DNA of 64,000 bases from Candidatus Aminicenantota bacterium (lineage in GTDB: Bacteria; Acidobacteriota; Aminicenantia; Aminicenantales; Saccharicenantaceae), in contig JACIYJ010000006.1 in the NCBI GenBank assembly GCA_014360015.1, positions 62,001 to 126,000 on the forward strand, read 5' to 3'. The notes beneath the pieces were generated by a model. The model saw only the letters and a list, made by a program, of their open reading frames with translations. It searched no databases and was not told the DNA's origin. A program made the position numbers and the translations under genes. Positions 38,880 through 64,000 of this stretch are shown piece after piece (within the stretch, counting starts at the first letter, position 1; each line of letters starts with the position of its first letter).

Positions 38880-38984
38880 TCAAGGAAATTACAAAAGGCA
38901 ATGGATGTGGCTCGCATGATAGGAAATAATGCCGTCCATCCGGGACAAATTGATGTTAGTATTGATGGACTTCAAAAGCCCTGA
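38880..38984 (+). pseudogene. Fragment of a DUF4145-type protein
   Basis: A plus-strand frame between stops (38865 and 38982) encodes about 34 residues including KAMDVARMIGNNAVHPGQIDVS. The GNNAVHPG(Q/E)ID block is the hallmark of the DUF4145 C-terminal region, seen in phage, restriction and defence-related proteins. There is no start codon context and the rest of the gene is gone, so this is a remnant. Its end overlaps the end of the glycyl radical enzyme gene on the other strand. Confidence 0.45.
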
Positions 38985-41335: not shown

Positions 41336-41337
41336 TT

Positions 41338-42246
41338 TCAACCTCCCTGTTTCACCTTAAAGCCCTTGGCTCGGAAAAAGTTCATCACTGAATCAACTCT
41401 TTCCTGAGATGGCGGTTCATACACTTTGAATTCACCATCTCTTCCCAGGCGGTGGAATTTTTCGACACCACCTTTATGATAAGGTAAAACATTTATCATT
41501 TTTACCGATTTTAATTCAACCAGAAATTCAGCCATCTGCTCCAGGTTTTTCTGATCATCATTAACTCCCGGAATCAGCGGAAAACGAACCCAGATTGGTG
41601 GGCCGCTGCTGTCATCAATGGCCTTAAGATTTTTAAGAATTAGCTCGTTTGTAACCCCAGTATGTTCCCGGTGTTTGGTATTATCCATAACTTTCAGGTC
41701 AAAGAGCACCAGGTCGGATTTCCTGGCTAACCGCAGGAAGATCTCCTCAGAGGCATAACCTGAAGTATCAAGAGCCACCTGAATGCCTCTGCGGTGGAGC
41801 GAATCAATTAGGGCTTCGGCCAGTTCTGGCTGGAAGAGAGGTTCACCACCGGTCAGGGTTACCCCACCACCCGACTGGTCGAAGAAAATTCGGTCTTTTT
41901 CGACCTCATTCAGGATTTCCTCTACTGAAACTTCCCGACCAACAATTTCTATGGCTTCCCGCTGACAAACTTTAACACAATCACCACATAGAGTGCATTT
42001 TGACCGGTCAGCCACCACTTCGCCGTCGCTTTTCTGCGATAAAGCCCCATAATTACAGGTTCGGACACAATCGCCACAGCGAGCGCATCGGTTGGGCATG
42101 AGCATTAATTCTGCCTTTTTTGATATTCCTTCTGGATTATGACACCAGAGACAGTGCAGAGGACAGCCTTTAAAGAAGACGTTAACCCTAATGCCCGGGC
42201 CGTCATGCACAGCATAGTGTTTCAGGTCGAAAATCATGCCTTTCAT
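41338..42246 (-). CDS. hypE: Glycyl radical enzyme activating protein (radical SAM)
   Basis: About 302 residues from the ATG at 42246 (AAGGA upstream); the ORF reaches 16 codons further. The radical-SAM motif is FKGCPLHCLWCHNPE (CxxxCxxC, about residue 30). Two ferredoxin-type clusters follow (CARCGDCVRTCNYG and CTLCGDCVKVCQREA), the usual insertion in activases of dehydratase-type glycyl radical enzymes. GGVTLTGGEP is the SAM-binding motif. It abstracts the Gly hydrogen of the enzyme encoded directly downstream, whose start codon is two bases after this stop. Confidence 0.88.
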   Translation of the reverse strand: MKGMIFDLKHYAVHDGPGIRVNVFFKGCPLHCLWCHNPEGISKKAELMLMPNRCARCGDCVRTCNYGALSQKSDGEVVADRSKCTLCGDCVKVCQREAIEIVGREVSVEEILNEVEKDRIFFDQSGGGVTLTGGEPLFQPELAEALIDSLHRRGIQVALDTSGYASEEIFLRLARKSDLVLFDLKVMDNTKHREHTGVTNELILKNLKAIDDSSGPPIWVRFPLIPGVNDDQKNLEQMAEFLVELKSVKMINVLPYHKGGVEKFHRLGRDGEFKVYEPPSQERVDSVMNFFRAKGFKVKQGG

Positions 42247-42263
42247 ATTTTTCCTTGGCAAAT

Positions 42264-42282
42264 CTGATATATCACATATCAG
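42264..42282. promoter_or_regulatory. Inverted repeat upstream of the hypE-hypD operon
   Basis: CTGATATATCACATATCAG has 7-bp arms around a 5-nt centre, 18-36 bp upstream of the activase start. The inner palindrome TGATATATCA recurs at 42415-42424. This is a plausible operator; the regulator is unknown. The remaining sequence 42283-42638 has no gene that I trust. Confidence 0.35.
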
Positions 42283-42638
42283 TAGAGTTGTCAAGCCAGG
42301 TTTGATGCTTAGTTCAACTCAATGTCTATCAGCCGAGATAATCCAGGTCATAAATAATCAAAAGATAGTTGAAACGCTAACATAAATTTAAATATCTTTT
42401 AGCAATGTGATGTATGATATATCAATTAAGACAAGTCTACCATTTTATAAAGGTTTATTCGAGGTGGTAAACTTCTCATATGGTACCAGGCCATTACCTT
42501 CAACCAAACCTGAAATGGAAAAAGAAGTAAAGCCCGAAATTCCCAAAAAAGATAGCAGACAGATGGCCATTATCAATAGTCGAAAAAAAATTTATGGGTT
42601 CAATTTAACCAGAATTTCGAAATGACTCAGGCTAGAAC

Positions 42639-49807: not shown

Positions 49808-50242
49808 CTATCTGCTGCCTGCTAATTTAACCATTATCTCCAGAGCAAACAGATAAACCTTCCAACCAAACCCTGATAGAACCCCCTGACAGACAGGTGC
49901 TGTAACTGAGTGGCTTCTAAAATCTTCTCTGGAAAAAATATTCGATAGATGAACTTCTATTACCGGTATTTTCAAAGGTTCTATGGCATCTCTTAAAGAA
50001 TAAGAATAATGAGCCAGGGCTCCTGGATTGATAATAACGCCATCAAACTCATCTACCTTCTGAAGCCTGTCGATGATTTCACCTTCATGATTGCTCTGAA
50101 AAAACTCAACTTCTACCCCCATCTCTTCAGCTCGTTCCCTCAGTTCGCTATTGATTTCTTCCAGAGTCTTTTGCCCGTAAATACTGACATTTCTTTTTCC
50201 AAGAAAATTTAAATTTGGTCCATTAATTACCAATATTTTCAA
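49808..50242 (-). CDS. aroQ: Type II 3-dehydroquinate dehydratase, TTG start
   Basis: 144 residues. The start codon is TTG at 50242, because the conserved N-terminus KILVINGPNLNFLGKR begins there, GGAGGAGGT lies in front, and no ATG fits. Catalytic blocks: Tyr in SIYGQKTL (about 23), NPGALAHYS (about 72), VHLSNIFSREDFRSHSV (about 98). It dehydrates 3-dehydroquinate to 3-dehydroshikimate, third step of the shikimate pathway. It is the last gene of the aromatic supraoperon and overlaps the aroKB end by 20 bp. Confidence 0.94.
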   Translation of the reverse strand: MKILVINGPNLNFLGKRNVSIYGQKTLEEINSELRERAEEMGVEVEFFQSNHEGEIIDRLQKVDEFDGVIINPGALAHYSYSLRDAIEPLKIPVIEVHLSNIFSREDFRSHSVTAPVCQGVLSGFGWKVYLFALEIMVKLAGSR

Positions 50243-51797
50243 TTATGACCTCCTCCATGGCCTCTACCATGAGTTCCTCAGGAATATTTCTTTTAAAAAT
50301 CACCCCCTCAGCTTCACTCAGTATAACAAAATCAAGGCCTTTTTCTGTAGCTTTTTTATCCATTCTCATATAATTAATCAGATTTTTCTTATCACCTTCA
50401 ATCTGCGTTCTCAATCCCAGGTTCTCTAATAAAGCTCTCACCCGCACTCCCAATTCCGGAGAACATAAGCCCAGCCTCTCGGAAATTTTCAGTGAATAGA
50501 TTAAACCGATTCCGACGGCTTCCCCATGAGAAATTTTGTAGCGATGAAATGATTCCAGAGCATGGGCCAAAGTGTGCCCGAGATTTAACTTTTTCCTCAA
50601 GCCTATCTCGTATGGATCTTCTTCAACTATTTTCTTTTTTACCTGAATAGCTCTGTAAATTACTTCTTCGATTGTTTCGAGATCAAGTCTTCTGATCAGC
50701 TCTGTTCTCTCTTCAATTAAATCTAAAAGTTGCCAATCACCTATAAGTCCTGCTTTAATCGCTTCAACCAGACCGGAAGCCAGCTCCTTTTTATCCAGCG
50801 AATGGAGTAAAAATGGATCTATAAAAACTTTATCAGCCGGGTAGAAGGTCCCGATAACATTCTTTACCGAGCGAAAATTAAGCCCATTTTTTCCGCCCAG
50901 GCTTGAATCGACCATGGCTAAGAGTGTAGAAGGAATATGATAATGCTTTATACCTCTTAAGATAGTTGAAGAAATAAATCCACACAGGTCACCTATCACC
51001 CCACCGCCAACTGAAACCAGAATAGAATCTCTTTTTACCTTATGGTCAATCAACCATCCCCAGATCTTTTCTGCCTGGCCCAGACTTTTACTTCTATCTT
51101 TTCCAGAGACAAGATAATAGAGCGGAAATATCTTCTCAAGATATTTTTTGTTTACTTGAAAAACCTTTTTATCACAGACTAAGAAAATCTTTCGCTCTGA
51201 ATCCAGACAAATGATCTTTTCAGGGGAAGATAACAGGAATCTTTTAAAGATTACCAAAGATTTTCTTTCGCCGACTTTGACTTCAAATTGTCTTGTTTCC
51301 GCTTTTAAGATCTCAATTACTTTTTGAGTGACTTCAACCTCGTTCAAGTTATCAATTTTAATTTTATTCGGCAATTGTTCATAAAGAGGTTCTCTTTTTC
51401 TATAAAGTTCGATAAACTTCTCTTTGTCCGAATGATTAACTAACGGTCTAAAAAAATTATTTTTAACTCGTTCCCAGAGAAGTTCAGGATCTCCCTTCAG
51501 GGTAATTATTATCCCTTTTTTTGATAATAAATCTAAATTTTTTTTAATAAGTAAGGTTTTCCCTCCGGTAGAAATAACACAGTTTTCAGCACATTCTTCG
51601 AGCTTTTTAATAACCTCTGTTTCTAATTGTCTGAAATAATGTTCGCCATATTTATCAAATATCTCTGAAACGGACAACCCCTGGCTTTTTTCAATCAACT
51701 CGTCAGTATCAAGGTGAATCATTGAAAGTTTCTCTGCCAGCAATTGGCCGATGGTAGTTTTTCCTGTTCCCATAAATCCGGTTAGAATGATGTTCAT
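50223..51797 (-). CDS. aroKB: Shikimate kinase - 3-dehydroquinate synthase fusion (AroK-AroB)
   Basis: 524 residues. Residues about 1-165 are shikimate kinase (Walker A GFMGTGKTTIGQ, then DTDELIE and ISTGGKTLL). Residues about 175-524 are dehydroquinate synthase (SVGGGVIGDLCGFISSTILRG, PSTLLAMVDSSLGGKNGLN, then NLGHTLAHALESFH and HGEAVGIG with metal ligands). The order kinase-synthase in one chain joins steps 5 and 2 of the pathway. The start overlaps the aroC stop by four bases. In the shikimate kinase part the usual Gly-Gly-Gly loop reads STGGKTL; whether this alters activity cannot be judged. Confidence 0.95.
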   Translation of the reverse strand: MNIILTGFMGTGKTTIGQLLAEKLSMIHLDTDELIEKSQGLSVSEIFDKYGEHYFRQLETEVIKKLEECAENCVISTGGKTLLIKKNLDLLSKKGIIITLKGDPELLWERVKNNFFRPLVNHSDKEKFIELYRKREPLYEQLPNKIKIDNLNEVEVTQKVIEILKAETRQFEVKVGERKSLVIFKRFLLSSPEKIICLDSERKIFLVCDKKVFQVNKKYLEKIFPLYYLVSGKDRSKSLGQAEKIWGWLIDHKVKRDSILVSVGGGVIGDLCGFISSTILRGIKHYHIPSTLLAMVDSSLGGKNGLNFRSVKNVIGTFYPADKVFIDPFLLHSLDKKELASGLVEAIKAGLIGDWQLLDLIEERTELIRRLDLETIEEVIYRAIQVKKKIVEEDPYEIGLRKKLNLGHTLAHALESFHRYKISHGEAVGIGLIYSLKISERLGLCSPELGVRVRALLENLGLRTQIEGDKKNLINYMRMDKKATEKGLDFVILSEAEGVIFKRNIPEELMVEAMEEVIIENIGN

Positions 51798-52909
51798 TCT
51801 TTTATACTCCAGCTTACTGAAGCTGTTTTTTCAAGATAAGCCCTCCAGCTTCTTTTTACTTCTTCCAGAGAGTCTCCGCCAAATTTTTCTAAAAAAAGAT
51901 TAGCTATCTCCAGGGCCAACACATTTTCAGCCACAATTCCGGCAGCCGGCACAATACAGGTGTCCCCTCTTAAAATCGGCGCTGAGGAAGGCTCATTATT
52001 TCTGAGGTCAACAGATTCAATTTTCTGGCGTAATGATGGGGCGGGTTTAATTGTAAGTCTGATGACAATGTCCTGCCCATTAGAAATTCCTCCTTCTAAG
52101 CCTCCAGCGTAGTTGCTCCCTCTTATGATTTTGCCATTCCTGACAATTATTGGATCATTATTGAGAGAGCCCAGGTATTGGGGGTTGCCGATCTCGAGAC
52201 CTTTAACTCCCGGAATGGAGAGCAAAGCACCACCTATTCTAAATTCCATCCTACGGTCATAATGAACATGGGAACCGAGACCTGCCGGCAGGCCCTTAAC
52301 CACAACTTCAGTTTCTCCGCCTATAGTATCACCCGCCGTCATGGCCTCTCTTATTTTTTCTATCATCAATTTTTCTGTTTCACTTTCTACACAATAAATC
52401 GAGGAAAAGAATCTATTCTCTTTTATGTATTCGAATGAATATTGCTTCTTATTTCTTATCTCACCAATTCTAACGGTATGAGACACAATATCTACCCTGA
52501 AATTAGAAAGAAAGAATTTGGCTATTACTCCAAGAGCTACTCTGATACTGGTTTCTCTGGCGCTGGCCCTTTCGGCAATCAGGTGAATGTTCTGAAAGCC
52601 ATACTTCAGACATCCGGCCAAATCTGCATGCCCAGGCCTTGGCGAATAATCTTCCAGCTCTTTTACATCTTTATTCTTAATTCTTATAGCTATTGGCGCT
52701 CCTGTGGTCAGTTGGTTTCTCAAGCCGCTCAGTATTTCAAAGTCTTCATCCTCTATCTGCATTCTTTCGCTTCTTCCAAAGTGATCTCTCCGATGTCTTA
52801 ATTCCTCGGCGATTTTCTTTTTGTCTATCCTGACACCAGCAACCATTCCTTCCAGTATCCCAACTAAGGAATCCCCATGTGATTCCCCGGCCGTAAGATA
52901 TCTAAGCAT
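51794..52909 (-). CDS. aroC: Chorismate synthase
   Basis: 371 residues; SD AAGGAGAG. Family signatures: MLRYLTAGESHGDSLVGILEG at the start, RHRRDHFGRSERMQIEDEDFEILSG, RPGHADLAG, and GGLEGGISNGQDIVIRLTIKPAPS. It makes chorismate from EPSP using reduced FMN. An 82-bp gap separates it from aroE, the second-longest gap inside the operon region, but no terminator is visible there. Confidence 0.96.
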   Translation of the reverse strand: MLRYLTAGESHGDSLVGILEGMVAGVRIDKKKIAEELRHRRDHFGRSERMQIEDEDFEILSGLRNQLTTGAPIAIRIKNKDVKELEDYSPRPGHADLAGCLKYGFQNIHLIAERASARETSIRVALGVIAKFFLSNFRVDIVSHTVRIGEIRNKKQYSFEYIKENRFFSSIYCVESETEKLMIEKIREAMTAGDTIGGETEVVVKGLPAGLGSHVHYDRRMEFRIGGALLSIPGVKGLEIGNPQYLGSLNNDPIIVRNGKIIRGSNYAGGLEGGISNGQDIVIRLTIKPAPSLRQKIESVDLRNNEPSSAPILRGDTCIVPAAGIVAENVLALEIANLFLEKFGGDSLEEVKRSWRAYLEKTASVSWSIKE

Positions 52910-52991
52910 CGAATCTCTCCTTATAATTTTGATGTTTAATCCCGTTAATCGATAGATGGTTATTTTCTACACGTTTTTTTCTCCCAGTTCC

Positions 52992-53828
52992 CTAAGATTT
53001 GTCCGTCAATTTATAAATAGAATTGTAGATTTTTTGCCAATCTTTAAATTCTGTCTTCAAACCAGTCCAGATCTCCAGAGATTTTATTGCCTGAAAGATA
53101 AGCATCTGAGAGCCATTTTTAATCTCAGCTCCGAGAGTCTGACCGATTTTCAGAAAAGGCGTCAACTCTGGCTTATAGATGAGATCCACAAAAACCTTAT
53201 TTTTAAGAGAATAAGTCGGTCTCAAAGGGAAAAAATTAGAAACACCTTCCATCCCGAGGGGAGTAGTATTAACAACAAAATCTACTCCTCTCAGTATCTC
53301 CAAAATATAATCTTCTTTCCATTCTTTTATTTCTAAGTTCTGGATGTATCCAAAATCTTTCTGTAATTTTTCTCTTTTCTTAGCTGATCTTTCCACCAGA
53401 AATACCTTCTGGTAATTCAACTGCGAAATTGAATACAGAACAGCGCGAGCTGCTCCTCCTCCGCCAAAGATCAACACGTTTTTTATTCTATCCTTAAACT
53501 CCTTTATCGATTCAGAAAATCCATAATAATCCGTGTTATAACCACATAACTTACCGTTGGCTTTATATATGGTGTTTACTGCCTTGATCCTGCTGGCTGG
53601 TAGCTCAAGCCAATCCAGAAAATCACAAACCCTTTCTTTGAAAGGAATGGTTACGTTGATTCCGGCTATATCTGATTGTCTCAGCGAATTAATAAATACT
53701 TCTAAATCTTCCGCTGGCAATTCAAATGGATCATAGACAAAGTTCAGGTTCATCATCTTGAATATTTCATTAAATAACCTGGGCGAAATTGAATGTTTCA
53801 GAGGATTACCAATTATTCCGAATCTCAT
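52992..53828 (-). CDS. aroE: Shikimate dehydrogenase
   Basis: 278 residues; SD AAAAGGAA. Substrate-binding start GIIGNPLKHSISPRLFN, catalytic Lys in NVTIPFKERVCDFLD (about 67), Asp in GYNTDYYGF (about 102), and the nucleotide-binding loop IFGGGGAARAVLY (about 125). It reduces 3-dehydroshikimate to shikimate. It lies 22 bp after aroA in the operon. Confidence 0.95.
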   Translation of the reverse strand: MRFGIIGNPLKHSISPRLFNEIFKMMNLNFVYDPFELPAEDLEVFINSLRQSDIAGINVTIPFKERVCDFLDWLELPASRIKAVNTIYKANGKLCGYNTDYYGFSESIKEFKDRIKNVLIFGGGGAARAVLYSISQLNYQKVFLVERSAKKREKLQKDFGYIQNLEIKEWKEDYILEILRGVDFVVNTTPLGMEGVSNFFPLRPTYSLKNKVFVDLIYKPELTPFLKIGQTLGAEIKNGSQMLIFQAIKSLEIWTGLKTEFKDWQKIYNSIYKLTDKS

Positions 53829-53850
53829 CTCAATTCCTTTTCGCTCATTA

Positions 53851-55128
53851 TTAATCGTGGCAGAGAGTTGAAAGATCTCTTATGAATTCCGGGTAAGAAA
53901 TCTGGACACTGTCAAACCCTTCTATCCAGGTTTCACCTCGGGTAATAAGCGAGGCTACCGCGAAAGTCATAGCTATCCTGTGGTCCCCAAAACTGCTTAC
54001 CTGATTACCTCTCAGAAGTGTCGGCCCCTCAATGATTATTCCATCTCGGAGCTCCTCTATCTTAGCTCCCATCTTTTTTAAGTTTTCACACATGGCCTTG
54101 ATTCGATCGCTTTCTTTGTGCCTCAATTCACTGGCTCCGGTTATTCTGGTAACTCCTTCGGCCTGAGTTGCCAACAAAGCTATGAGAGGAATTTCATCAA
54201 TCAGAGACGGAATCTCTTCCTTAGTCACCTCTGTGGCTTTTAAAGAACTCGATTTTATCTCCAGATCGGCCACTTCTTCCTTGGCCTGCTCTTTCATCTT
54301 TAACACAGAAATCTTAGCTCCCATTCTTTGGAGAACTCTTATAAATCCGGTTCTGGTCGGATTGTAACCAACTTCCCGCACCACTATGTGCGATCCAGGC
54401 ACCAAAACTGCGGCCCCTATCAAAAAAGCAGCTGAGGAAATATCTCCTGGAACCGTAATTTCACCACCTTCAATTTGAGAACTTCCATCCACCGTGATTA
54501 TATTACCCTGAACTTCCAGATTTACCCCAAACCACTCAAGCATTCTTTCTAAATGATCCCTGGACTTTATTTTTTCCTTGATGGTAGTTTTCCCTTCGGC
54601 CAACAGGGCGGCCAGGATGACAGCCGATTTCACCTGGGCGCTGGGAACGGTGAGCTCAAATTCATGGCCATGGAGTTCGTTCCCTTTTATGGAAATTGGC
54701 AAAAGAGAATCATTTTCCCGGCCAAAAATGATTGCTCCCATCCTTCTCAAGGGCTCCACAACTCTTTTCATTGGCCTTCGCTTCAGTGAATCATCCCCGT
54801 CAATTACCGAAAAGAATTTTTGCCCGCTCAGAATTCCAGAAAGCAACCTGGCTGTAGTCCCTGAATTTCCACAATAGAGAATATCTCTGGGTTCTTTTAG
54901 CTGACCGGGTTTTATAATTATCTCCTTAGGATTCATTGTTAGGCTTTTTCCAAGCTTTCGGAGACAATCTACAGTTGAGAGAGTATCACCCGAGATAAGG
55001 GGATTTTTTATCCTTACTCCCTTCCTCGATATCGCTCCAACCATCAAGGCTCGGTGGGTAATTGACTTATCAGGAGGTGGAATTATTTCCCCGGTCAGCT
55101 TCTGACCTTTAGAAAACGGCATTTTCAT
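53851..55128 (-). CDS. aroA: 3-phosphoshikimate 1-carboxyvinyltransferase (EPSP synthase)
   Basis: 425 residues; SD GGAGAAAG. Signatures: PPDKSITHRALM near residue 19, LYCGNSGTTARLLSGIL (about 85), ELRHKESDRI and SFGDHRIAM (about 385). The fold is two domains of repeated beta-alpha units. It joins shikimate 3-phosphate and PEP. The start lies 20 bp inside the tyrA end. The motif GNSGTTARL has Thr where class I enzymes usually have Thr-Ala-Met, so inhibitor sensitivity class is not assigned. Confidence 0.95.
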   Translation of the reverse strand: MKMPFSKGQKLTGEIIPPPDKSITHRALMVGAISRKGVRIKNPLISGDTLSTVDCLRKLGKSLTMNPKEIIIKPGQLKEPRDILYCGNSGTTARLLSGILSGQKFFSVIDGDDSLKRRPMKRVVEPLRRMGAIIFGRENDSLLPISIKGNELHGHEFELTVPSAQVKSAVILAALLAEGKTTIKEKIKSRDHLERMLEWFGVNLEVQGNIITVDGSSQIEGGEITVPGDISSAAFLIGAAVLVPGSHIVVREVGYNPTRTGFIRVLQRMGAKISVLKMKEQAKEEVADLEIKSSSLKATEVTKEEIPSLIDEIPLIALLATQAEGVTRITGASELRHKESDRIKAMCENLKKMGAKIEELRDGIIIEGPTLLRGNQVSSFGDHRIAMTFAVASLITRGETWIEGFDSVQISYPEFIRDLSTLCHD

Positions 55129-55960
55129 ACATCTTTCTCCTTTTCTCCGCTTCCCGATTTATTACCTCGATAATTTTAGAAATTTCGTCTTTCTCGATTG
55201 TCGTCTTAAATTTGTTTAGTTCATAAATAACCCTTTTTATATTTTTGATAATGTTTTTTTTGTTCGTAAGAACTAAGTCCGACCCAATTTTTGCTGGTGT
55301 CAGGGTCAGCCGGGTGGCTCCCAGAAATCCAGTGGCGATAAAATTATCTATCTTTCTATTTTTTCGACGCTGTTTCAGATAAATTGAAAATAAAGCAAGA
55401 GAAATAACATAGGGCAAATGACTGGTAGTGGCAGCCCAGAAATCGTGGTCGGCTGGATCTATTTCCACTGGAATAGCTCCGATATTTTTAATTACCTTTT
55501 CGATTACCGGTTTCCCTTGTTTTGAATAGTGATGAGGAAAGCAGAGAAAAAAAGGTTTGCCCGAAAAAAGATCAGCTCTCCAGGCTTTTTCGCCTGCCCT
55601 AACTGTGCCGGCCATGGGATGGCCACCAATCAGCATCTTTTTCGAATATTTCTTCATTTCTCTGACTATCTGGTTTTTAGTGCTCCCGGTATCCAGTAAA
55701 ATCTTTCTTTCTTCCAGAATTGGCCCAATCTCTTTGATTAGCTTCTGAATCTCCTTAACTGGTGTAGCCAGGATGATAATATCGGATCTCTTAACTCCAG
55801 CTTCAATATCATCCAGATATTCATTTAGGATTTGAGAATAGACTTTCTTAAATTGCTTGTCCTTCCCATAAATTCTGGCGGCCACCTGGCTTTTCCTTAA
55901 GGCTAAAGCCAGAGAACAGCCAATTTGGCCAAGGCCGATAATGAAAAAATTATATTTCAT
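55109..55960 (-). CDS. tyrA: Prephenate dehydrogenase
   Basis: 283 residues. The NAD(P)-binding start is [20 protein letters not shown]; then [30 protein letters not shown], and the catalytic His region [13 protein letters not shown] (about 117) with [14 protein letters not shown] (about 180). It converts prephenate to 4-hydroxyphenylpyruvate for tyrosine. No ACT domain is fused, so Tyr feedback is not visible in this protein. The start overlaps the aroF stop by four bases. No prephenate dehydratase gene is near. Confidence 0.93.
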
Positions 55961-56967
55961 ATCTCTCTCCCACAGGCTGAACAGAGAGCTCTCAGCTCCT
56001 CAAGAAATTTCGAGAACATTTTAAAATCAAGAGTCTGAAGTCCATCACTCAGAGCCGACTGCGGATCTTTATGTACCTCCACTATCAGCCCGTCAGCTCC
56101 AGCCGCAACCGCAGCCTTTCCCACCGCCGCGACCAGGTCTCTAACTCCCGTTCCATGGCTGGGATCAGCAATGACCGGCAAATGAGAAAGCTTTTTAATC
56201 AAAGGAATAGCCGAGACATCGAAAGTGTTTCGGGTATATTTTTCAAATGTTCTTATTCCTCTTTCACATAACATCACTCTCGTATTTCCATTAGATAAAA
56301 TATATTCTGCCGACATTAGTAATTCCTCAATCGTGGCCATTAGGCCACGCTTGAGTAAAACCGGCTTATCCGTTTTACCAACAGCCTGAAGAAGTGGATA
56401 ATTCTGCATGTTTCTGGCGCCAATCTGAAGGATATCAGCAACCTGACTGACCTTTTCCACATCTTCGGGAGACATAACTTCTGTAACAATGGCCAACCCG
56501 GTCTCTCTTTTTACCTCATCGAGATATTCGAGACCTTTTTCTTTCAACCCCTGAAAAGAATAAGGTGAAGTTCTGGGTTTATAAGCACCTCCTCTCAAAA
56601 TCTTAACGCCCATTTCTTTTAAAACCCCAGCTATTTCTTTTATCTGCTCTTTGCTCTCCACGGCACAGGGACCAGCCATCAAAGTTATCTTTCTCCCCCC
56701 AACTTCTGTTCCATTAATTCTTATTACGGTATCTTCGTTTTTAAACTCTCTGCTGGCTAACTTAAAGGGACTCATAATACGGACAACTTTTTCTACTTCT
56801 GGCAATACTTCAAAATAATCTGGCTCAACTTCAACCCAGCCAATTACTCCAATTACTGTTCTTTCTTTGCCCTTTATTAAATTTGGTTTTAATCCTAATT
56901 CCTTAACTCTTTTCAAGACTTGAGAAACACCTTTAACTGAGGCACCTGGTTTCATCACTATGATCAT
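55957..56967 (-). CDS. aroF: 3-deoxy-7-phosphoheptulonate synthase (DAHP synthase, type I-beta)
   Basis: 336 residues; SD CAGGAG. An N-terminal ferredoxin-like domain (residues about 1-70, [25 protein letters not shown]) precedes the barrel, as in the Thermotoga-type enzyme, where it mediates feedback by Tyr or Phe. Catalytic signatures: [48 protein letters not shown] and DPSHGTGVR. First step of the shikimate pathway from PEP and erythrose 4-phosphate. Adjacent to a monofunctional chorismate mutase. Confidence 0.95.
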
Positions 56968-57347
56968 TTTTGTTCTCCTGAAAGGTCCGGTCTTAAGATC
57001 TTTGTCTGACCAAGATATTGATGCCTGATTTCCTCAGGTTTTAAATCAGTGTAAGCCAGGACTAATACCCTGATGACTCTTTCCATAGCTCCAGGAACGT
57101 CAATTTCCTTAGCACAAAGAGCCGGAACATAATTCAGACCCATTTGTCTCAAAGCGTACGCTGGAAACTCTTTGTTTATCTCTCCCGTCACCGTAAAAAA
57201 CACAGCGACTACATCCTGTTTTTCCAGATTGTTGGCAAAAATTATTTCCTGCAGGAGTTCAGTAGTCTTATTTAGGATTTCATTTTTGTTATTTTCCTCA
57301 ACCTGAACGGCCCCTCTTATTCCTCTTAATCTGACTTCTTTTCTCAT
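56964..57347 (-). CDS. aroH: Monofunctional chorismate mutase, AroH type
   Basis: 127 residues, typical for the trimeric Bacillus-type enzyme. Motifs: [17 protein letters not shown] with the active-site Arg, [25 protein letters not shown], and the Cys-containing [23 protein letters not shown]. It turns chorismate into prephenate at the branch point toward Tyr and Phe. Start and stop overlap both neighbours by four bases, so translation is coupled. Confidence 0.94.
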
Positions 57348-58132
57348 AAAGCACCTCTCATGGTCTTCAAAAATTCTTCAACTTCTCCAACCCTGAAATC
57401 TTTTTCTCGACCCATCATGATTTTAATGATGGCACTCCCGACTATTACTCCATCTACGTCCTTGGCTATTTGAGCTGCCTGAGTCGGAGTGGAAATGCCA
57501 AAGCCAGCATAAAGAGGCTTATCAGTAAAGGATTTAACTCTGGCAATTGTTTCTCTCAGTTCAGCTGCAATCTGATTTCTGACACCGGTAACTCCGAATA
57601 CCGAAACTAAGTAAATAAATCCTTCAGAATTTTTGGCGATAAGTTTAATTCTGCCGGGCTCTGTTGATGGAGCAATCATATTTATCACCGAAATGTTTCT
57701 TTTTTTAAAACAATCCTGGAGGAAGCCAATTTCCTCTACTGGCAGGTCAGGAAATAGAATTCCGGATATATTCTCCTGGCTCATAAAATTGGCAAATCGA
57801 TCAAAGCCAAATTGATAAATCGGATTTAAATAGCTCATTATCACCACCGGAATGGTCAAATCTTTCCTGAATTCCTTAAAGAAAGAGATAAAACTGGCGA
57901 GCTTGAACCCTTTTTCTAAAACCCATTCAGAAGAATGCTGAATATACTTGCCGTCAGCAATTGGATCGGAAAAAGGAATTCCAATTTCCACCAGGTCAGC
58001 ACCTGATGATTGGGCAGCGATTAGAAGTTCGGCAAAATCTCTTTCTGTGGGATAAAAAGCAGTAAAAAATGGAACAAAAGCTTTCCGGCCTTTCTGCCTG
58101 ATCTCCTCAGTTATTATTTCGAGTCTTTGCAT
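57344..58132 (-). CDS. trpA: Tryptophan synthase alpha subunit
   Basis: 262 residues; SD AGAGGTT. Catalytic Glu in [20 protein letters not shown] (about 49) with the Asp in PFSDP (about 60), and the phosphate loop [12 protein letters not shown] (about 210) before [12 protein letters not shown]. It cleaves indole-3-glycerol phosphate to indole, which passes to TrpB. The gene overlaps the trpB end by 26 bp. Confidence 0.95.
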
Positions 58133-59294
58133 TTTTAACCTCTTTAATGGAGATGTCTTTGTCTCCCCTTCCAGATAAATTAACTATTACAATTTCTCCT
58201 TTTTTAAACTTTTTAAATTTCTTAACCCAGGCCACAGCATGTGAAGATTCCATGGCCGGTATAATTCCTTCCAATCTGGCCACCTCATTAAAAGCTTCAA
58301 GAGCCAATTCGTCATCTACACTATCAACCAGGATTTTTCCCGTCTCCACCAGGAAAGCCAGCTCTGGTCCGACACCCGGATAATCAAGCCCAGCTGAGAT
58401 TGAATAAGAATTTAATATCTGACCGTCTTCATCCTGAAGAACATAGGTATAAGCACCATGGAAAATACCTAACTTCCCTTTGAGCAAAGACAAAGCATGA
58501 AAAGAAGTCTCCTGACCTCGACCTGCCGCCTCCACTCCTATCTTCTTAACTCCCTTTTCCTTCAAAAATGGATGAAACAGACCTATTGAATTTGAGCCCC
58601 CACCGATACAGGCAACCAGATAATCAGGTAGCCGCCCTTCTATCTTCCTTATTTGTTTTTTAACTTCTCTTCCTATAACTGACTGAAATTCTCTGACCAT
58701 TAAGGGATAGGGATGAGGGCCAACGGCCGAACCAAGAAGATAATGACTCGTCCGAACATTTGTCACCCAATCTCTCATGGCTTCATTGGTAGCATCTTTA
58801 AGTGTTCTTGAACCCGAAGTCACTTTAATAATCTCAGCTCCCAGAAGACGCATCTTAGAAAGGTTTAGAGCCTGCCTTTTCATATCAATTTCACCCATAT
58901 AAATGGTGCATTCCAGGCCAAAGAGAGCAGCCACCGTGGCTACAGCTATTCCATGTTGTCCAGCGCCGGTTTCAGCAATCAATCTTTTTTTTCCTAATCT
59001 TTTGGCGAGGAGAGCCTGGCCAAGGCAATTGGTGATTTTATGGGCACCAGTATGGTTGAGGTCTTCTCTCTTTAAATAGATTTTTACTCCATAGACCCGA
59101 CTAAGATTTTCAGCAAAAAACAATGGCGTTGGCCTCCCACAATAATTCTTCAGATAAAATTCAAACTCCTTTTTAAAGACCGGATCCTGGCGCGCAGCAT
59201 AAAACTCTCTCTCGAGTTCCAGCAGAGGTCCCATCAAAGTTTCGGGGACATAACGGCCACCGAATCTACCGAACTTGCCAGATGATAATCCCAT
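58107..59294 (-). CDS. trpB: Tryptophan synthase beta subunit
   Basis: 395 residues from the ATG at 59294 (SD GGAGG); the ORF extends 25 codons upstream, but [19 protein letters not shown] is the normal TrpB N-terminus. PLP-Lys in [18 protein letters not shown] (about 90), [18 protein letters not shown] and [12 protein letters not shown] for phosphate binding. It is a TrpB1-type enzyme. It condenses indole and serine. It overlaps the 3' end of trpF by 61 bp, an unusually long overlap. Confidence 0.95.
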
Positions 59295-59878
59295 TTTTTG
59301 ATCCTCCAGATAAATTCTCGAAGCTTTTCCGGATCTTTTTTGCCAGGGAAAAGTTCTATTCCTGAGCAAACATCTAAGCCAAAAGGAGAAACTTTTTCTA
59401 AAACTGACTCCACGTTATCAGGATTTAATCCCCCACCGAGGAAAAATTTTCCGTATCTTTTGGCCCTGATAGCTATCTCCCAATCAAATGGCTGCCCCTT
59501 AATTTTTGAATCAAGGATAAAGAAATCAAATCCTGAACGGGCTATGATTTCAAGGTCTCGAAATTCTCCTACTCTAAAAGCTTTTATCCCCTTGCCTCTA
59601 AAGCTTCTCACATAGTCTACCGACTCATCTCCATGAAATTGCAACAGATCCAGCCCCAGCCTCTTGTTTATTTTTTTGACTGAGTCCATTGGCTCGTTAA
59701 CGAACACTCCGACTTTAATTATGAATGGCGGGAGATTATTTATTATGTACCTGGCTTTCTCCACACTTATTTTTCTCGGACTTTCAGAAAAAATAAATCC
59801 CAATGCTTCAGCCCCGAGTTCCACGGCCAATAGAGCGTCTTCAAGATTGGTAATCCCGCAAATTTTTATTCTGGTCAT
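59234..59878 (-). CDS. trpF: Phosphoribosylanthranilate isomerase
   Basis: 214 residues. Catalytic Cys in [27 protein letters not shown] (about 7) and Asp in FILDSK; phosphate loop GGGLNPDNV and [12 protein letters not shown]. It converts phosphoribosylanthranilate to CdRP. The C-terminal tail after [11 protein letters not shown] is about 18 residues longer than needed and is encoded in the overlap with trpB, so it may be a by-product of the overlap. Confidence 0.93.
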
Positions 59879-60633
59879 CCCCTCAGCCCCTCCATTAATT
59901 TTAGGATTCTGTCTTCAATTTCCGAAGCCTCCATAAAATAACTTCCGATCAGAAAACCATCGGCCCCGGCCCTTTTGAACCTCTTTAAATCCTCTGGAGT
60001 CTTTAAGCCGCTCTCAATAATCCTTATTTCTCCGATGTTTTTTTCCCTTAGAAGATCCAGCATTCTCTCTCCATGAGATAGGTCAACCTTTAACGATGTA
60101 AGATCTCTGTTGTTAACGCCGACGATCCTTACCGGTAAGTCCGAAATCTTTTCTACATCCTGTTCAGAATGAACTTCTACTAAGGGTTCCATTTGCAGTT
60201 CCTGGCATTTTTCCAGCAGGCGGATTAATTTTCTTTTCTCCACCAGAGAGGCTATCAATAGCACACTGTCCGCCCCATTATTTCTGGCCTGAATTATCTG
60301 AGACTCGTGAATAATAAATCCCTTCTGAATTACAGGTATGGAAACAGCGCTCTTAACCCTCTTCAAATCATCAGCCGTGGTTAAAAAATAGTTCTCCTCA
60401 ACTACTACCGAAACCGCTGAAAAGCCGTTGGTTTCGTACCGCCGAGCCAGTTCTTCAGGCTGCCAGTCTGTGTCAAACTTTCTGGTTGGGGTAGCTCTTT
60501 TGAACTCACCGATGATGCCATTACCCTTTCTCAGATAACTGGAAAGAGAAAGGGGTTTTTCCTTTCTCCGCAGAATTTCTTCTTTTATTTCCTGCGCTTC
60601 AATTTGCTTTTTAATCTTCTCGAGGAAATTCAT
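59875..60633 (-). CDS. trpC: Indole-3-glycerol phosphate synthase
   Basis: 252 residues. Catalytic residues in IIGEFKRATPTRKFD (Glu and Lys, about 45), IPVIQKGFIIHESQI (Lys about 100), GVNNRDLTSLKVDL and ESGLKTPEDL near the C-terminus, then ADGFLIGSYFM. It closes the indole ring. The start codon overlaps the trpD end region (TGAATG). Confidence 0.95.
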   Translation of the reverse strand: MNFLEKIKKQIEAQEIKEEILRRKEKPLSLSSYLRKGNGIIGEFKRATPTRKFDTDWQPEELARRYETNGFSAVSVVVEENYFLTTADDLKRVKSAVSIPVIQKGFIIHESQIIQARNNGADSVLLIASLVEKRKLIRLLEKCQELQMEPLVEVHSEQDVEKISDLPVRIVGVNNRDLTSLKVDLSHGERMLDLLREKNIGEIRIIESGLKTPEDLKRFKRAGADGFLIGSYFMEASEIEDRILKLMEGLRG

Positions 60634-61644
60634 TCAGTCCTCCTGATGAAACTTTATGAAGTCCTTTAGCTTTTGCCGAGCCTTCCCGGAATCGATTGAA
60701 TCCTTAGCCATTTCTATCCCTTCCTTTAAATCTGGAGCCTTACCGGAAACAAAAATAGCTGCTCCGGCATTAATAAGAACAAAATCCCTATAAACCGAAT
60801 CTTCGCCCCTCAAGACACTGAATAGAATGTTCAGGTTTTCCTGCAGGGATAGCGCCTTGATGCTGGCTTCCCTCATCCTGATTCCATAATCTTCAGGAAC
60901 TATTTCTATTTCTTTGAGTTCATTCCTTTCAACCAGATAGCCAGCGGTTGGGGCAGCCACGGATATTTCATCAAGACCATCCATAGAATGAACCAGAAGA
61001 TACCTTTCCCCACCAAGTTTCCTGATGACCTCAGCAACTTTTTTTATTACTTTCTCATTGAAGAAACCGATTAACTGTCTTTTAACCCCAGCTGGGTTGA
61101 TCAACGGTCCCAGAAGATTAAAAATCGTTCTGACTCCTATTTCTTTCCTTATTGGCTGGACATTTTTCATCGAAGGGTGAAAATAAGGAGCAAAGATAAA
61201 TCCAATACCTAATTCCTCAACTGATTGTCTAACCTTGGAAGGAGAATCAGGAAGCTTGACTCCCAATCCTTCTATCAGATCAGCACTGCCGCACTGGCTG
61301 GAAATGGCCCGGTTTCCATGTTTGGCCACTTTGACCCCGGCTCCGGCAACTACAAAGGCCGAAATGGTGGAAATATTGAAAGTGGATTTTCCATCTCCTC
61401 CAGTTCCACATAAATCCACAACCTCTTCCTGGCTGAGCTCGATTTTGAGAGCTTTTTCTCTCAGAGTTTTTACAAAGGAAAAGATTTCCTCTGGAGTTTC
61501 TCCTTTCATCCTTAGGCCGATAAGAAAAGCAGAAACTTGAGCCGGGGTGGCTTTGCCCTCCATTATTTCCATCACTGAAGCCTCAGCCACAGAAAGGTCA
61601 AGGTCATATCCCTCACATAAAGTTCTTATGGCCTGTTCAATCAT
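60634..61644 (-). CDS. trpD: Anthranilate phosphoribosyltransferase
   Basis: 336 residues. Family signatures: LCGTGGDGKSTFNISTISAFV (about 79), KHGNRAISSQCGSADLIEGLG (about 107), and RTIFNLLGPLINPAG. It adds PRPP to anthranilate. The ATG overlaps the trpG stop by four bases. It is a stand-alone enzyme, not fused to TrpG as in enterobacteria. Confidence 0.95.
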   Translation of the reverse strand: MIEQAIRTLCEGYDLDLSVAEASVMEIMEGKATPAQVSAFLIGLRMKGETPEEIFSFVKTLREKALKIELSQEEVVDLCGTGGDGKSTFNISTISAFVVAGAGVKVAKHGNRAISSQCGSADLIEGLGVKLPDSPSKVRQSVEELGIGFIFAPYFHPSMKNVQPIRKEIGVRTIFNLLGPLINPAGVKRQLIGFFNEKVIKKVAEVIRKLGGERYLLVHSMDGLDEISVAAPTAGYLVERNELKEIEIVPEDYGIRMREASIKALSLQENLNILFSVLRGEDSVYRDFVLINAGAAIFVSGKAPDLKEGIEMAKDSIDSGKARQKLKDFIKFHQED

Positions 61645-62216
61645 TTCCCGCTCCCCAATTCAAAAAAGTTTTTTATCAGCTTTTTGCCTTCTCTGGTCAA
61701 AAAAGACTCAGGATGAAATTGAACTCCCTCGGTTGCCGTTCCTTTTATCCTGATACCCATTATTTCTCCATCGGCAGTATAAGCAGACACCTCTATTTCC
61801 TCTGGAAGGTTTTCTTCTGAAACAAGGAGGGAATGATATCTGGTGGCCTCAAAAGGATTAGAAATATCATAAAAGATAGTGTGACCGTCGTGATAAATCT
61901 CAGAGGTAAGACCATGCATTACTCTTCCGGCTGGAACAACTTTTCCTCCAAAGGCCTGGGCAATACACTGATGTCCAAGACAAACGCCAAGAATTGGAAT
62001 TTTGCCCGTGAAGTGCCTGATTATTTCTTTACACTCTACTGCTTCTTCTGGCTTGCCCGGTCCAGGAGAGATTACAATATAATCAGGTGATAAGGATATG
62101 ACTTCCTGAAGGGTCAGGCTGTTTCTTCGTCGGACGATAACCTCTTCAGAAATTGTCTTGAACATTTGATAGAGGTTGTAGACGAAGGAATCGAAATTAT
62201 CTATGATTAAAATCAT
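61641..62216 (-). CDS. trpG: Anthranilate synthase glutamine amidotransferase subunit
   Basis: 191 residues. Starts ILIIDNFDSFVYNLYQMF. Nucleophilic Cys in ILGVCLGHQCIAQAFGG (about 79), with His and Glu in GVQFHPESFLT (about 170). Class I GATase that supplies ammonia to TrpE. It could also serve as PabA with a PabB elsewhere. The ATG overlaps the trpE stop by one base. Confidence 0.95.
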   Translation of the reverse strand: MILIIDNFDSFVYNLYQMFKTISEEVIVRRRNSLTLQEVISLSPDYIVISPGPGKPEEAVECKEIIRHFTGKIPILGVCLGHQCIAQAFGGKVVPAGRVMHGLTSEIYHDGHTIFYDISNPFEATRYHSLLVSEENLPEEIEVSAYTADGEIMGIRIKGTATEGVQFHPESFLTREGKKLIKNFFELGSGK

Positions 62217-63640
62217 TTAAATCCTCCCTTTTCGGCTATCTTTACCGCTTCATACATTCCTTTTATTTTGTTCTGAACTTCGCGATATTCATTTTCGGGG
62301 TTAGAACCGAACACAATTCCAGCACCTCCTTGAAGGAAAAAGACTCCTCTTTTATAGATAATCATCCTTATGCCAATACATAGATCGACATTCCCGTTGA
62401 AGCCAAAATACCCGACAACTCCTCCATAAGGGCCCCTTTCTACCGGTTCAAGCTGGTCGATTATCTCCATGGCTCTGAGCTTGGGTGCTCCGGTAACTGT
62501 GCCAGCCGGAAAGGTCGCTTGAAGAATGTCAAAAAAAGTTTTGTTCGGACTGAGTTTTCCTTCGACCTGGGAAACGATGTGCATTACATGCGAATATCTT
62601 TCTATAGACATTTTTTCTGTAATCTGGACACTCCCTGGAAGGCAGAGCTTCCCCAGGTCATTTCTGGCCAGATCAATCAACATAATATGCTCAGCTCTCT
62701 CTTTCTGATCATTAATTAATTGCTGTTCTAATTCGAGATCTTCTTCTCTCGTTTTGCCTCTTCTTCTTGTCCCGGCTATGGGCCGGATGGAAACAGTATC
62801 TTTCTCAACTTTAACGTGGGATTCCGGAGAAGAACCTATGATTTGAAACCTACCGAAATCAAAATAGAACATATAAGGAGAGGGATTAATAATTCTCAGA
62901 GCTCGATAAATGTCAAAAGGCGAAGCTGAAGTTCTTCCTTTGAATTTAATAGAAAGGACTGCCTGAAAGATATCACCTGCTTTTATAAAATTCTTAGCTT
63001 CAATCACTCTTTTTATGTATTCTTCTTCAGAAAGGCTGGAACTCAGCGAGGAATTAAACTGGACTTCAGAATCCCTTTTTTCACTCCTGTAGGCGCGTCG
63101 AGAAGTCAGAGCACTCTTGATTGAGGCTATACTTTCTTCAATATCTTTTTCACTTAATCTGATCCCTCCCACCAATATTTTCCCAATATGTTTCACATGA
63201 TCAAATACCAGCAGTTTATTGACTTTAAACAGGTAAAGTTGTGGAAACAAACTTTCTGGCTTTTTAAGATCGAGGTCATCAAAAAACCGGACAAATTCAT
63301 AACCAATATAGCCAGCCCAGCCACCGGTGAAGGCTATCTCTTCCGGGGTTTGATAACATCTCTCTTTCAGGATTGAATCCAGAACCGCTTTAACATTATC
63401 TCTTTTTATGACTACTTCCCGCCCGCCTGCCCTTAAAGTATCACCCTCAACCACAATTGTTTCTTCTGGATCTATCCCAATAAATGAATACCTTCCAAGT
63501 TTCTCTCCCTTTTCTACACTCTCCAGGAGAAAAACAGCACCCCGTTTTCTTAAATTGAGAAAAGCAGAAACCGGAGTATAGAGATCAAGCGGAACGTCCT
63601 CCCAGCCAACCAATCTGTCCTCAAATTTTCTTAGCTCCAT
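62213..63640 (-). CDS. trpE: Anthranilate synthase component I
   Basis: 475 residues; SD TGGAGGA. The N-terminal half (YTPVSAFLNLRKRGAVFLLESVEKGEKLGRYSFIG) includes the LLES element that forms the Trp feedback pocket, so inhibition by tryptophan is expected. C-terminal chorismate-binding blocks: RPIAGTRRRGKTREED, LIDLARNDLGKL, FPAGTVTGAPKLRAME, GGVVGYFGFNG and QGGAGIVFGSNPE. It is the first structural gene of the supraoperon and follows the attenuator by about 16 bp. Confidence 0.95.
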   Translation of the reverse strand: MELRKFEDRLVGWEDVPLDLYTPVSAFLNLRKRGAVFLLESVEKGEKLGRYSFIGIDPEETIVVEGDTLRAGGREVVIKRDNVKAVLDSILKERCYQTPEEIAFTGGWAGYIGYEFVRFFDDLDLKKPESLFPQLYLFKVNKLLVFDHVKHIGKILVGGIRLSEKDIEESIASIKSALTSRRAYRSEKRDSEVQFNSSLSSSLSEEEYIKRVIEAKNFIKAGDIFQAVLSIKFKGRTSASPFDIYRALRIINPSPYMFYFDFGRFQIIGSSPESHVKVEKDTVSIRPIAGTRRRGKTREEDLELEQQLINDQKERAEHIMLIDLARNDLGKLCLPGSVQITEKMSIERYSHVMHIVSQVEGKLSPNKTFFDILQATFPAGTVTGAPKLRAMEIIDQLEPVERGPYGGVVGYFGFNGNVDLCIGIRMIIYKRGVFFLQGGAGIVFGSNPENEYREVQNKIKGMYEAVKIAEKGGFK

Positions 63641-63656
63641 TTTTCCTCCAAAAAAA

Positions 63657-63690
63657 AAGACCCACCTGTTTTTAACTACAGGTGGGTCTT
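63657..63690 (-). terminator. Attenuator terminator of the aromatic operon
   Basis: A perfect 13-bp stem AAGACCCACCTGT / ACAGGTGGGTCTT with an 8-nt loop, followed on the minus strand by seven more T. It ends only 16 bp before the trpE start codon, so it must be bypassed for the operon to be expressed. Its 5' arm (GACCCACC) can instead pair with GGTGGGTC at 63736-63743 in the leader, which would form an antiterminator. Confidence 0.95.
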
Positions 63691-63731
63691 GGGATTTCCT
63701 ATCTCAGAGGGTCTTGCGGCTTAAGGAAACC

Positions 63732-63788
63732 TTACCGACCCACCCTCTGGGCGTACCAGTACCAGTAGTACCAGTACAGGTGGGTCAT
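63732..63788 (-). CDS. trpL: Trp/Tyr-rich leader peptide of the aromatic operon
   Basis: 18 codons plus TAA: MTHLYWYYWYWYAQRVGR, with AAGGAT eight bases upstream of the ATG. Three Trp and five Tyr codons are packed into eight consecutive positions (residues 5-12); there is no Phe codon. The GACCCACC at its start can pair with GGTGGGTC near its end (1:2 hairpin), which can pair with the terminator's 5' arm (2:3 antiterminator). This is the logic of the classic trp attenuator: ribosome stalling at Trp or Tyr codons should free segment 2 and allow read-through. Confidence 0.93.
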   Translation of the reverse strand: MTHLYWYYWYWYAQRVGR

Positions 63789-63824
63789 CTCAATATCCTT
63801 AAGCCACTTACACATTTCGTAATG

Positions 63825-63852
63825 ATTATAGATAAAGAAAAGAGCTTGTCAA
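63825..63852 (-). promoter_or_regulatory. Consensus sigma-70 promoter of the aromatic operon
   Basis: TTGACA (63847-63852) and TATAAT (63825-63830), both perfect, 16 bp apart on the minus strand. The predicted start site (about 63815-63819) leaves a leader of about 30 nt before the leader peptide. The match is the best promoter in the window. Confidence 0.88.
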
Positions 63853-63886
63853 GAACAGTTTCAGAATTTCTTAGAGCCTAAGGATT

Positions 63887-64000
63887 TTATGGTGGACACT
63901 TAGCACAGAACGAGCGAAATAGTTTGGTAGACAGATAGCGGTCTCCTCTATCCGGAAATATGGTAACAACTGTTCCTTCTTTTATTCTGGCAGCAATTTT
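63887..64000 (-). CDS. Cysteine synthase-like PLP enzyme, C-terminal end only
   Basis: 38 codons up to the right edge, stop at 63887. The fragment KIAARIKEGTVVTIFPDRGDRYLSTKLF is the highly conserved end of the CysK/CysM/cystathionine beta-synthase family (FPDxGxRYLST). The last residues FCAKCPP are an unusual tail with a CxxC pair. The enzyme would make cysteine from O-acetylserine or O-phosphoserine and sulfide. The stop lies about 35 bp upstream of the aromatic operon's -35 box on the same strand. Confidence 0.85.
   Translation of the reverse strand, partial: KIAARIKEGTVVTIFPDRGDRYLSTKLFRSFCAKCPP

Follow-up and report, generated by a model that had tools for sequence, protein, structure and literature searches.

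Can a single leader peptide place a whole aromatic supraoperon under the control of two amino acids? The question is raised by a stretch of 64,000 nucleotides (nt) from a Candidatus Aminicenantota bacterium (contig JACIYJ010000006.1, positions 62,001 to 126,000; hereafter the window), in which a trp-aro-tyr operon of 15 genes, contiguous and on one strand with trpE at its head, is preceded by a short open reading frame (ORF) with a run of tryptophan (W) and tyrosine (Y) codons. We consider it likely that this leader is a ribosome-mediated attenuator that reads charged tRNA-Trp and tRNA-Tyr jointly and governs the entire chorismate/Trp/Tyr operon. The initial annotation had proposed a complete trp-type attenuator here, and conserved competing stems, ribosome-position folds and covariance-model homologues bear it out. 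The proposal that Trp and Tyr are sensed together is well supported by comparison, leader residues following operon and genome content, if not proven.

Anatomy and predicted folding of the trpE leader

On the minus strand, from 63852 to 63640, there follow a sigma-70 promoter, the leader ORF, four pairing segments, an intrinsic terminator and trpE (Table 1). The consensus promoter and segments 1 to 4 were all found where they had first been annotated. The T-run before trpE was also present, its extent amended to reach 63650, and two helices had gone unmentioned, an outer 1:2 stem and the upper helix of the antiterminator. The terminator consists of a 13-pair stem and the T-run, and its end lies 10 nt upstream of the trpE ATG. 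Promoter boxes and spacing are identical in three related genomes (G003, G012 and G095), and two others (G013 and G061) carry a TAAAAT variant.

The leader had first been described as an 18-amino-acid ORF with a Shine-Dalgarno (SD) sequence. That ORF is in frame, but neither its ATG at 63788 nor the supposed SD is conserved in relatives. We prefer the start at 63815 because the relatives share that ATG and lack the one at 63788; the true start therefore probably lies 27 nt further upstream and gives a peptide of 27 amino acids. This ATG is 9 nt past the -10 box, and the predicted transcript start is about 3 nt away. A distance of 8-10 nt is common to the window genome, G003, G012, G013 and G095, and many other aromatic leaders of the class start 4-14 nt past the -10 box, the exceptions being the two G061 attenuators at 33 and 26 nt. 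The eight control codons are cognate to the operon's own products, those of trpEGDCFBA and tyrA. Short ORFs with an ATG and at least two W and at least two Y per eight residues occurred in only 3 of 1,898 background segments of 300 nt, drawn from this and related loci, among which are three genuine leaders of the same kind.

When the leader RNA was folded and the 1:2, 2:3 and 3:4 pairings were compared, they proved mutually exclusive, in the relatives as well. The minimum free energy (MFE) was -76.7, against a shuffle mean of -46.4 (z -7.5). Predicted stem energies were -43.8 kcal/mol for 1:2 (outer and inner together), -24.9 for 2:3 and -21.4 for 3:4; 1:2 thus stands above 2:3, and 2:3 slightly above 3:4, which in the model is the order expected for attenuation. 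Over five genomes the z-scores were -7.5 (window), -7.9, -6.7, -6.9 and -4.6, all with the same 1:2 layout. The outer 1:2 stem is kept despite diverged letters, for example GGCUUAAGG:CCUUAAGCC versus UACGAAAGG:CCUUUCGUA, and the GGGTC of segment 2 is invariant in alignment A3. In two MAFFT alignments (A1 and A2) the 5' end region of G095 is wrongly placed, and per-genome folds with explicit pair lists were used instead of formal pair counts.

We also folded the RNA up to segment 3 with a ribosome of assumed footprint at each codon, in four genomes (window, G003, G095 and G061). In the window, a stall at any control codon leaves the antiterminator free with a probability (P) of 0.76-1.0, and throughout the aromatic clusters of all four genomes P lies at 0.6-1.0. 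At the codon after the last aromatic it drops to 0.18 (window), 0.15 (G003) and 0 (G095); in G061 it is still 0.60 at one codon past and 0 at two. The aromatic run thus ends where a stalled ribosome is still able to act. In these simulations a stall at the control codons exposes segment 2 and passage hides it, and stalling at a Tyr codon has the same predicted outcome as stalling at a Trp codon.

We suggest the following mechanism. Transcription would start about 3 nt ahead of the leader AUG. With both tRNAs charged, the ribosome would pass YWYYWYWY to the stop codon, covering and then releasing segment 2, which would enter the very stable 1:2 structure and leave the 3:4 terminator to form before trpE. 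With Trp or Tyr short, the ribosome would stall on one of the eight control codons and mask segment 1; pairing of segment 2 with segment 3 would then let RNA polymerase continue into trpE-aroQ. We infer that termination and stalling actually take place and that starvation for Tyr alone would derepress the operon.

Leader residues and operon content in relatives

Both leader and pairing stems were recovered from five related genomes, so that the attenuator is present in six Aminicenantia genomes in all. Beyond its training set the covariance model matched G012 (1e-28), G095 (2e-11) and, in G061, a second attenuator (6e-9). Weak matches in G022, G009 and G048-C143 had no leader on visual inspection and resemble ordinary hairpins.

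Among these genomes the control codons vary with gene content. The operons of G003 and G095 hold trp, aro and tyrA, as in the window. The window genome, 94% complete, gave no match to prephenate dehydratase (PF00800, pheA) with a query that matched 14/14 control genomes. The organism is therefore likely, from its gene content, to synthesize Trp and Tyr and to lack Phe synthesis, in agreement with a leader that contains W and Y and no phenylalanine (F). Neither the window genome nor G095 has a detected pheA, and neither leader has Phe among its control codons; in G003 and G013 pheA is present and a single Phe codon occurs within the aromatic run. The trp operon of G061 is trpEGDCFBA-aroF only, without tyrA, and its leader has W and no Y. 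G061 has two further leaders. A second attenuator, before aroA-aroE-aroC, has the leader MKIKQASFYYRLFWRFRRTGL, encoding FYYRLFWRF, and a leader of another type, ending PYFYFGL, stands at an operon of 3-deoxy-D-arabino-heptulosonate 7-phosphate (DAHP) synthase (DAHPS), chorismate mutase and tyrA. One genome thus has a W-rich leader for trp, an F/Y/W leader for the common pathway and an F/Y leader for DAHPS-tyrA.

The same correspondence was seen across the class, in 28 leader-operon pairs that share ancestry. W is in the leader of 14/14 operons serving Trp synthesis and of 0/14 others (Fisher 5e-8); Y fits prediction in 27/27 scorable pairs; and F is present in all 22 cases where it was predicted, plus 3/6 where it was not. 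In this count G060 was credited with Phe and Tyr branches, neither of which was detected there, and the G012 pheA leader as serving Tyr though tyrA is no longer found. Two leaders at contig ends (the G056 DAHPS leader and a second G060 leader) and the G012 orphan, whose operon is gone, were excluded. PF02153 misses a divergent TyrA, and a second query was therefore used wherever tyrA seemed to be absent. DAHPS-headed operons that serve Trp have leaders ending SSFCFYFWAVPAAL, CFVYGFYYWAVSPAL, SFFSFYYFYFWAVPAAQ, AFYFRYWAVPSAR, FSFFYFWAVPAA and FSSYFYFWA, and those without trp have leaders ending YYPLYYYYYYF (G053), NYSYFYYGRF and SSYLFAYYYGRL. One with pheA and no detectable tyrA ends TFHLFSFNFGR.

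We lean towards the view that in Aminicenantia, and in at least one genus of another Acidobacteriota family, multivalent leaders are recoded in F, Y and W as operons gain or lose branches. The sets would be W and Y in the window; W and one F for trp without tyr; F, Y and W for the common pathway; F and Y for pheA/tyrA; and F alone for aro-pheA. If this is true, the purpose of an operon can be read from its leader, and in one case the record, an orphan attenuator, has persisted after the operon itself was lost. In that other family, G371 (L222 1360-1490) and G293 (L228) have F/Y/W leaders before DAHPS, MSSSANSFRFSYWWYFST and MRRSFASSFRFWFRSYTG respectively, followed by terminators of the form ACCCACTC-GAAA-GAGTGGGT; this kind of attenuator is therefore not confined to Aminicenantia. 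DAHPS operons in other Acidobacteriota classes are mostly without aromatic leaders. TrpE relatives in Chloroflexi gave no convincing aromatic leader, and those in Woeseiaceae (Gammaproteobacteria) have classical WWW leaders, a useful control.

Several further observations concern these loci. The DAHPS F/Y/W leaders (L162-L167) have a recurrent hairpin at the stop codon. The sequence after it is rich in C and poor in G, and an intrinsic terminator is usually absent; termination by Rho or sequestration of the SD may operate there. Aminicenantia pheA operons have Phe and Tyr leaders (L104 1023-1190, L121 1150-1310, L101 1035-1122, L106 986-1140), with an intrinsic terminator in G003 and G012 and a GGTTTCC/GGAAACC pairing beside the pheA SD in G019 and G056. 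In G146 (L226, C44:24000-32775), of another family of the phylum, the order trpA-aroH-aroF-tyrA-aroA-aroE-aroC-aroKB-aroQ is the same, and the contig ends before the operon head. Among about 142 Aminicenantia genomes trpE was found in 19, pheA in 20 and DAHPS in 31, and with so patchy a distribution most Aminicenantia look like aromatic auxotrophs. All sequences come from metagenome-assembled genomes. The terminator 3' arm is missing in G013 (L002 1380-1400), which also lacks the trpE start, and in G053 (L169 1840-1880); these gaps may reflect hairpins collapsed during assembly rather than biological losses.

Table 1. Features of the trpE leader and its operon in the window, with the homologous leaders of related genomes
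Feature	Sequence	Position	Strand	Remarks
Promoter	TTGACA-16-TATAAT	63825..63852	(-)	12/12 consensus match; predicted transcript start ~63818
-35 box	TTGACA	63852-63847	(-)	16-nt spacer follows
-10 box	TATAAT	63830-63825	(-)	
Leader ORF, 27 amino acids	MCKWLKDIEMTHLYWYYWYWYAQRVGR	63732..63815	(-)	ATG 63815-63813; stop TAA 63734-63732; leaderless-like
Outer 1:2 stem, 5' arm	GTGGCTTAAGGA	63796..63807	(-)	MFE fold
Segment 1	GACCCACC	63779..63786	(-)	Fold
Control codons	TAC TGG TAC TAC TGG TAC TGG TAC	63753..63776	(-)	5 Tyr, 3 Trp
Segment 2	GGTGGGTC	63737..63744	(-)	Codons V-G-R at leader end
Antiterminator upper helix, 5' arm	GGTTTCCT	63724..63731	(-)	Pairs with 63700-63693
Outer 1:2 stem, 3' arm	TCCTTAAGCCGC	63716..63727	(-)	MFE fold
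Antiterminator upper helix, 3' arm	AGGAAATC	63693..63700	(-)	
Segment 3	GACCCACCTGT	63678..63688	(-)	Antiterminator 3' arm / terminator 5' arm; GACCCACC at 63688-63681
Segment 4, terminator 3' arm	ACAGGTGGGTC	63659..63669	(-)	Terminator -21.4 kcal/mol; terminator scan
T9 tract	nine T	63650..63658	(-)	Directly after segment 4
trpE SD	GGAGG	63649-63645	(-)	ATG at 63640
trpE, first structural gene		62213..63640	(-)	TIGR00564 above cut-off
trpG, trpD, trpC, trpF, trpB, trpA		57344..62216	(-)	NCBIfam best matches
aroH-type chorismate mutase		56964..57347	(-)	TIGR01796 above cut-off
DAHP synthase (aroF)		55957..56967	(-)	TIGR01361 above cut-off
tyrA, prephenate dehydrogenase		55109..55960	(-)	PF02153 above cut-off
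aroA, aroE, aroC, aroK-aroB fusion, aroQ		49808..55128	(-)	Named from translations and co-linear order in G003, G095, G053
Glycyl-radical enzyme with adjoining activating enzyme		38972-42294		From ORF translations only
Homologous leader, G003	HLHRYYWYWFMKRVGR			
Homologous leader, G013	HQYWYYWYWFMLRVGR			
Homologous leader, G095	HPRYYYWWYMRVGL			
Homologous leader, G012	RQYWYFWYWYTMRVGW			Orphan
Homologous leader, G061	MKQTVSCMCRFWWHKRTGL			

Does tyrosine act through the leader?

Several points weigh against the reading proposed here. The ribosome footprint, 13 nt downstream from the start of the A-site codon, was assumed, and the folds are equilibrium folds of truncated RNA. Equilibrium folding of the full-length RNA with a ribosome block favours the terminator wherever the block is placed; antitermination must therefore be under kinetic control, as it is in E. 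coli trp. Phylogenetic dependence is left in the association test, and the leaders were already known when the operons were sorted into classes. The leader's Tyr codons are TAC in 5/5 cases, compared with 23/124 in the operon genes (p = 2e-4), and the UAC/UGG run of the window leader is self-complementary; from the codon bias, RNA pairing may shape part of the choice of Tyr codons. Lastly, PMC11802643, citing Neshat 2014, describes the AroR leader of C. glutamicum (Phe-Tyr-Phe before aroF), in which a Tyr codon is present, Tyr limitation is without effect and only Phe limitation acts.

The TAC bias, the self-complementary run and the AroR case would suit an attenuator that is real and responds in practice to Trp only, its Tyr codons being passive, as pairing partners or spacer. 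So would the rarity of Trp, which makes up 0.56% of the operon's proteins, far less than Tyr or Phe. We nevertheless think a Trp-only response unlikely. Y is gone from the G061 trp leader, whose operon has no tyrA, and dominates the leaders of tyr operons without trp (G053, G044 and G037). Moreover, G095 keeps its Y run with mostly TAT codons, and the modelled stall at Tyr equals that at Trp.

We think it very unlikely that the terminated leader RNA or its peptide acts mainly in trans, like rnTrpL/peTrpL in Sinorhizobium. The S. meliloti trpL leader is leaderless (PMC7298713), and the start in the window resembles it. In G012 (L184 1480-1860, G012:C358) promoter, leader (MAKMLKEYTPTRQYWYFWYWYTMRVGW) and terminator are intact although the trp-aro-tyr operon is gone. 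However, the peptide is not conserved outside the aromatic run and the RVGR/RTGL end encoded by segment 2, and G012 may simply have lost its operon recently. The flanks of the G012 orphan are syntenic with G003: a divergent pheA, tRNA-Ala CGC and the next gene.

Least probable of all is another RNA mechanism, with the short ORF incidental: operons of this kind are controlled by the trp RNA-binding attenuation protein (TRAP) in Bacillus, and aromatic genes by T-boxes in many Firmicutes, but Rfam, T-box included, gave nothing in 62000-64000 even at E<=1 and nothing that reached the gathering threshold anywhere in the window, the longest run of TRAP-type (G/U)AG repeats at 2-3 nt spacing in the leader was 1 (about 11 expected), and the leader ORF is kept in six genomes with covarying stems.

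Relation to known attenuators

Textbook aromatic attenuators sense a single amino acid. Multivalent leaders, with codons for several operon products, are nevertheless classical for the enteric ilvGMEDA, ilvBN and thr operons, which the initial annotation overlooked in describing classic leaders as dominated by one amino acid. Mixed leaders thus have precedents in principle, but we found none for a leader that combines Trp and Tyr on an aromatic supraoperon. Searches limited to open-access papers gave nothing relevant on Trp/Tyr leaders or Acidobacteriota attenuators, which is weak evidence of absence.

In the window a single leader seems to bring two end products together in the control of an entire supraoperon. 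Its relatives amount to natural swaps, F, Y and W being gained and lost with genes, with three differently coded leaders in one genome, and they make the way in which attenuators gain a new specificity directly testable by codon exchange. Such leaders could also serve as a sequence-only predictor of the aromatic amino acids that an uncultured bacterium makes.

The E. coli ilvGMEDA, ilvBN and thr operons, listed in PMC1183508, share the multivalent leader and differ in serving branched-chain and threonine pathways, not aromatic ones. Actinobacterial trp attenuators are of the classical trp type outside Proteobacteria, with double or triple UGG repeats as regulatory codons and no Tyr run (PMC1262725). 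The closest aromatic parallel that we found is C. glutamicum AroR, as described in the paper cited above: it too is a mixed aromatic leader, before a DAHP-synthase operon and acting by ribosome-mediated attenuation, with Phe/Tyr instead of Trp/Tyr and a response to Phe alone. The trpL leader of E. coli shares with the window a leader peptide, segments 1-4 and a 2:3 antiterminator competing with a 3:4 terminator directly before trpE. However, trpL is Trp-only, SD-led and placed before an operon of trp genes alone, whereas the leader in the window has both Trp and Tyr codons and starts in leaderless-like fashion; its segment 2 lies within the ORF, its 1:2 structure has an additional outer stem, and it precedes a trp-aro-tyr operon of 15 genes.
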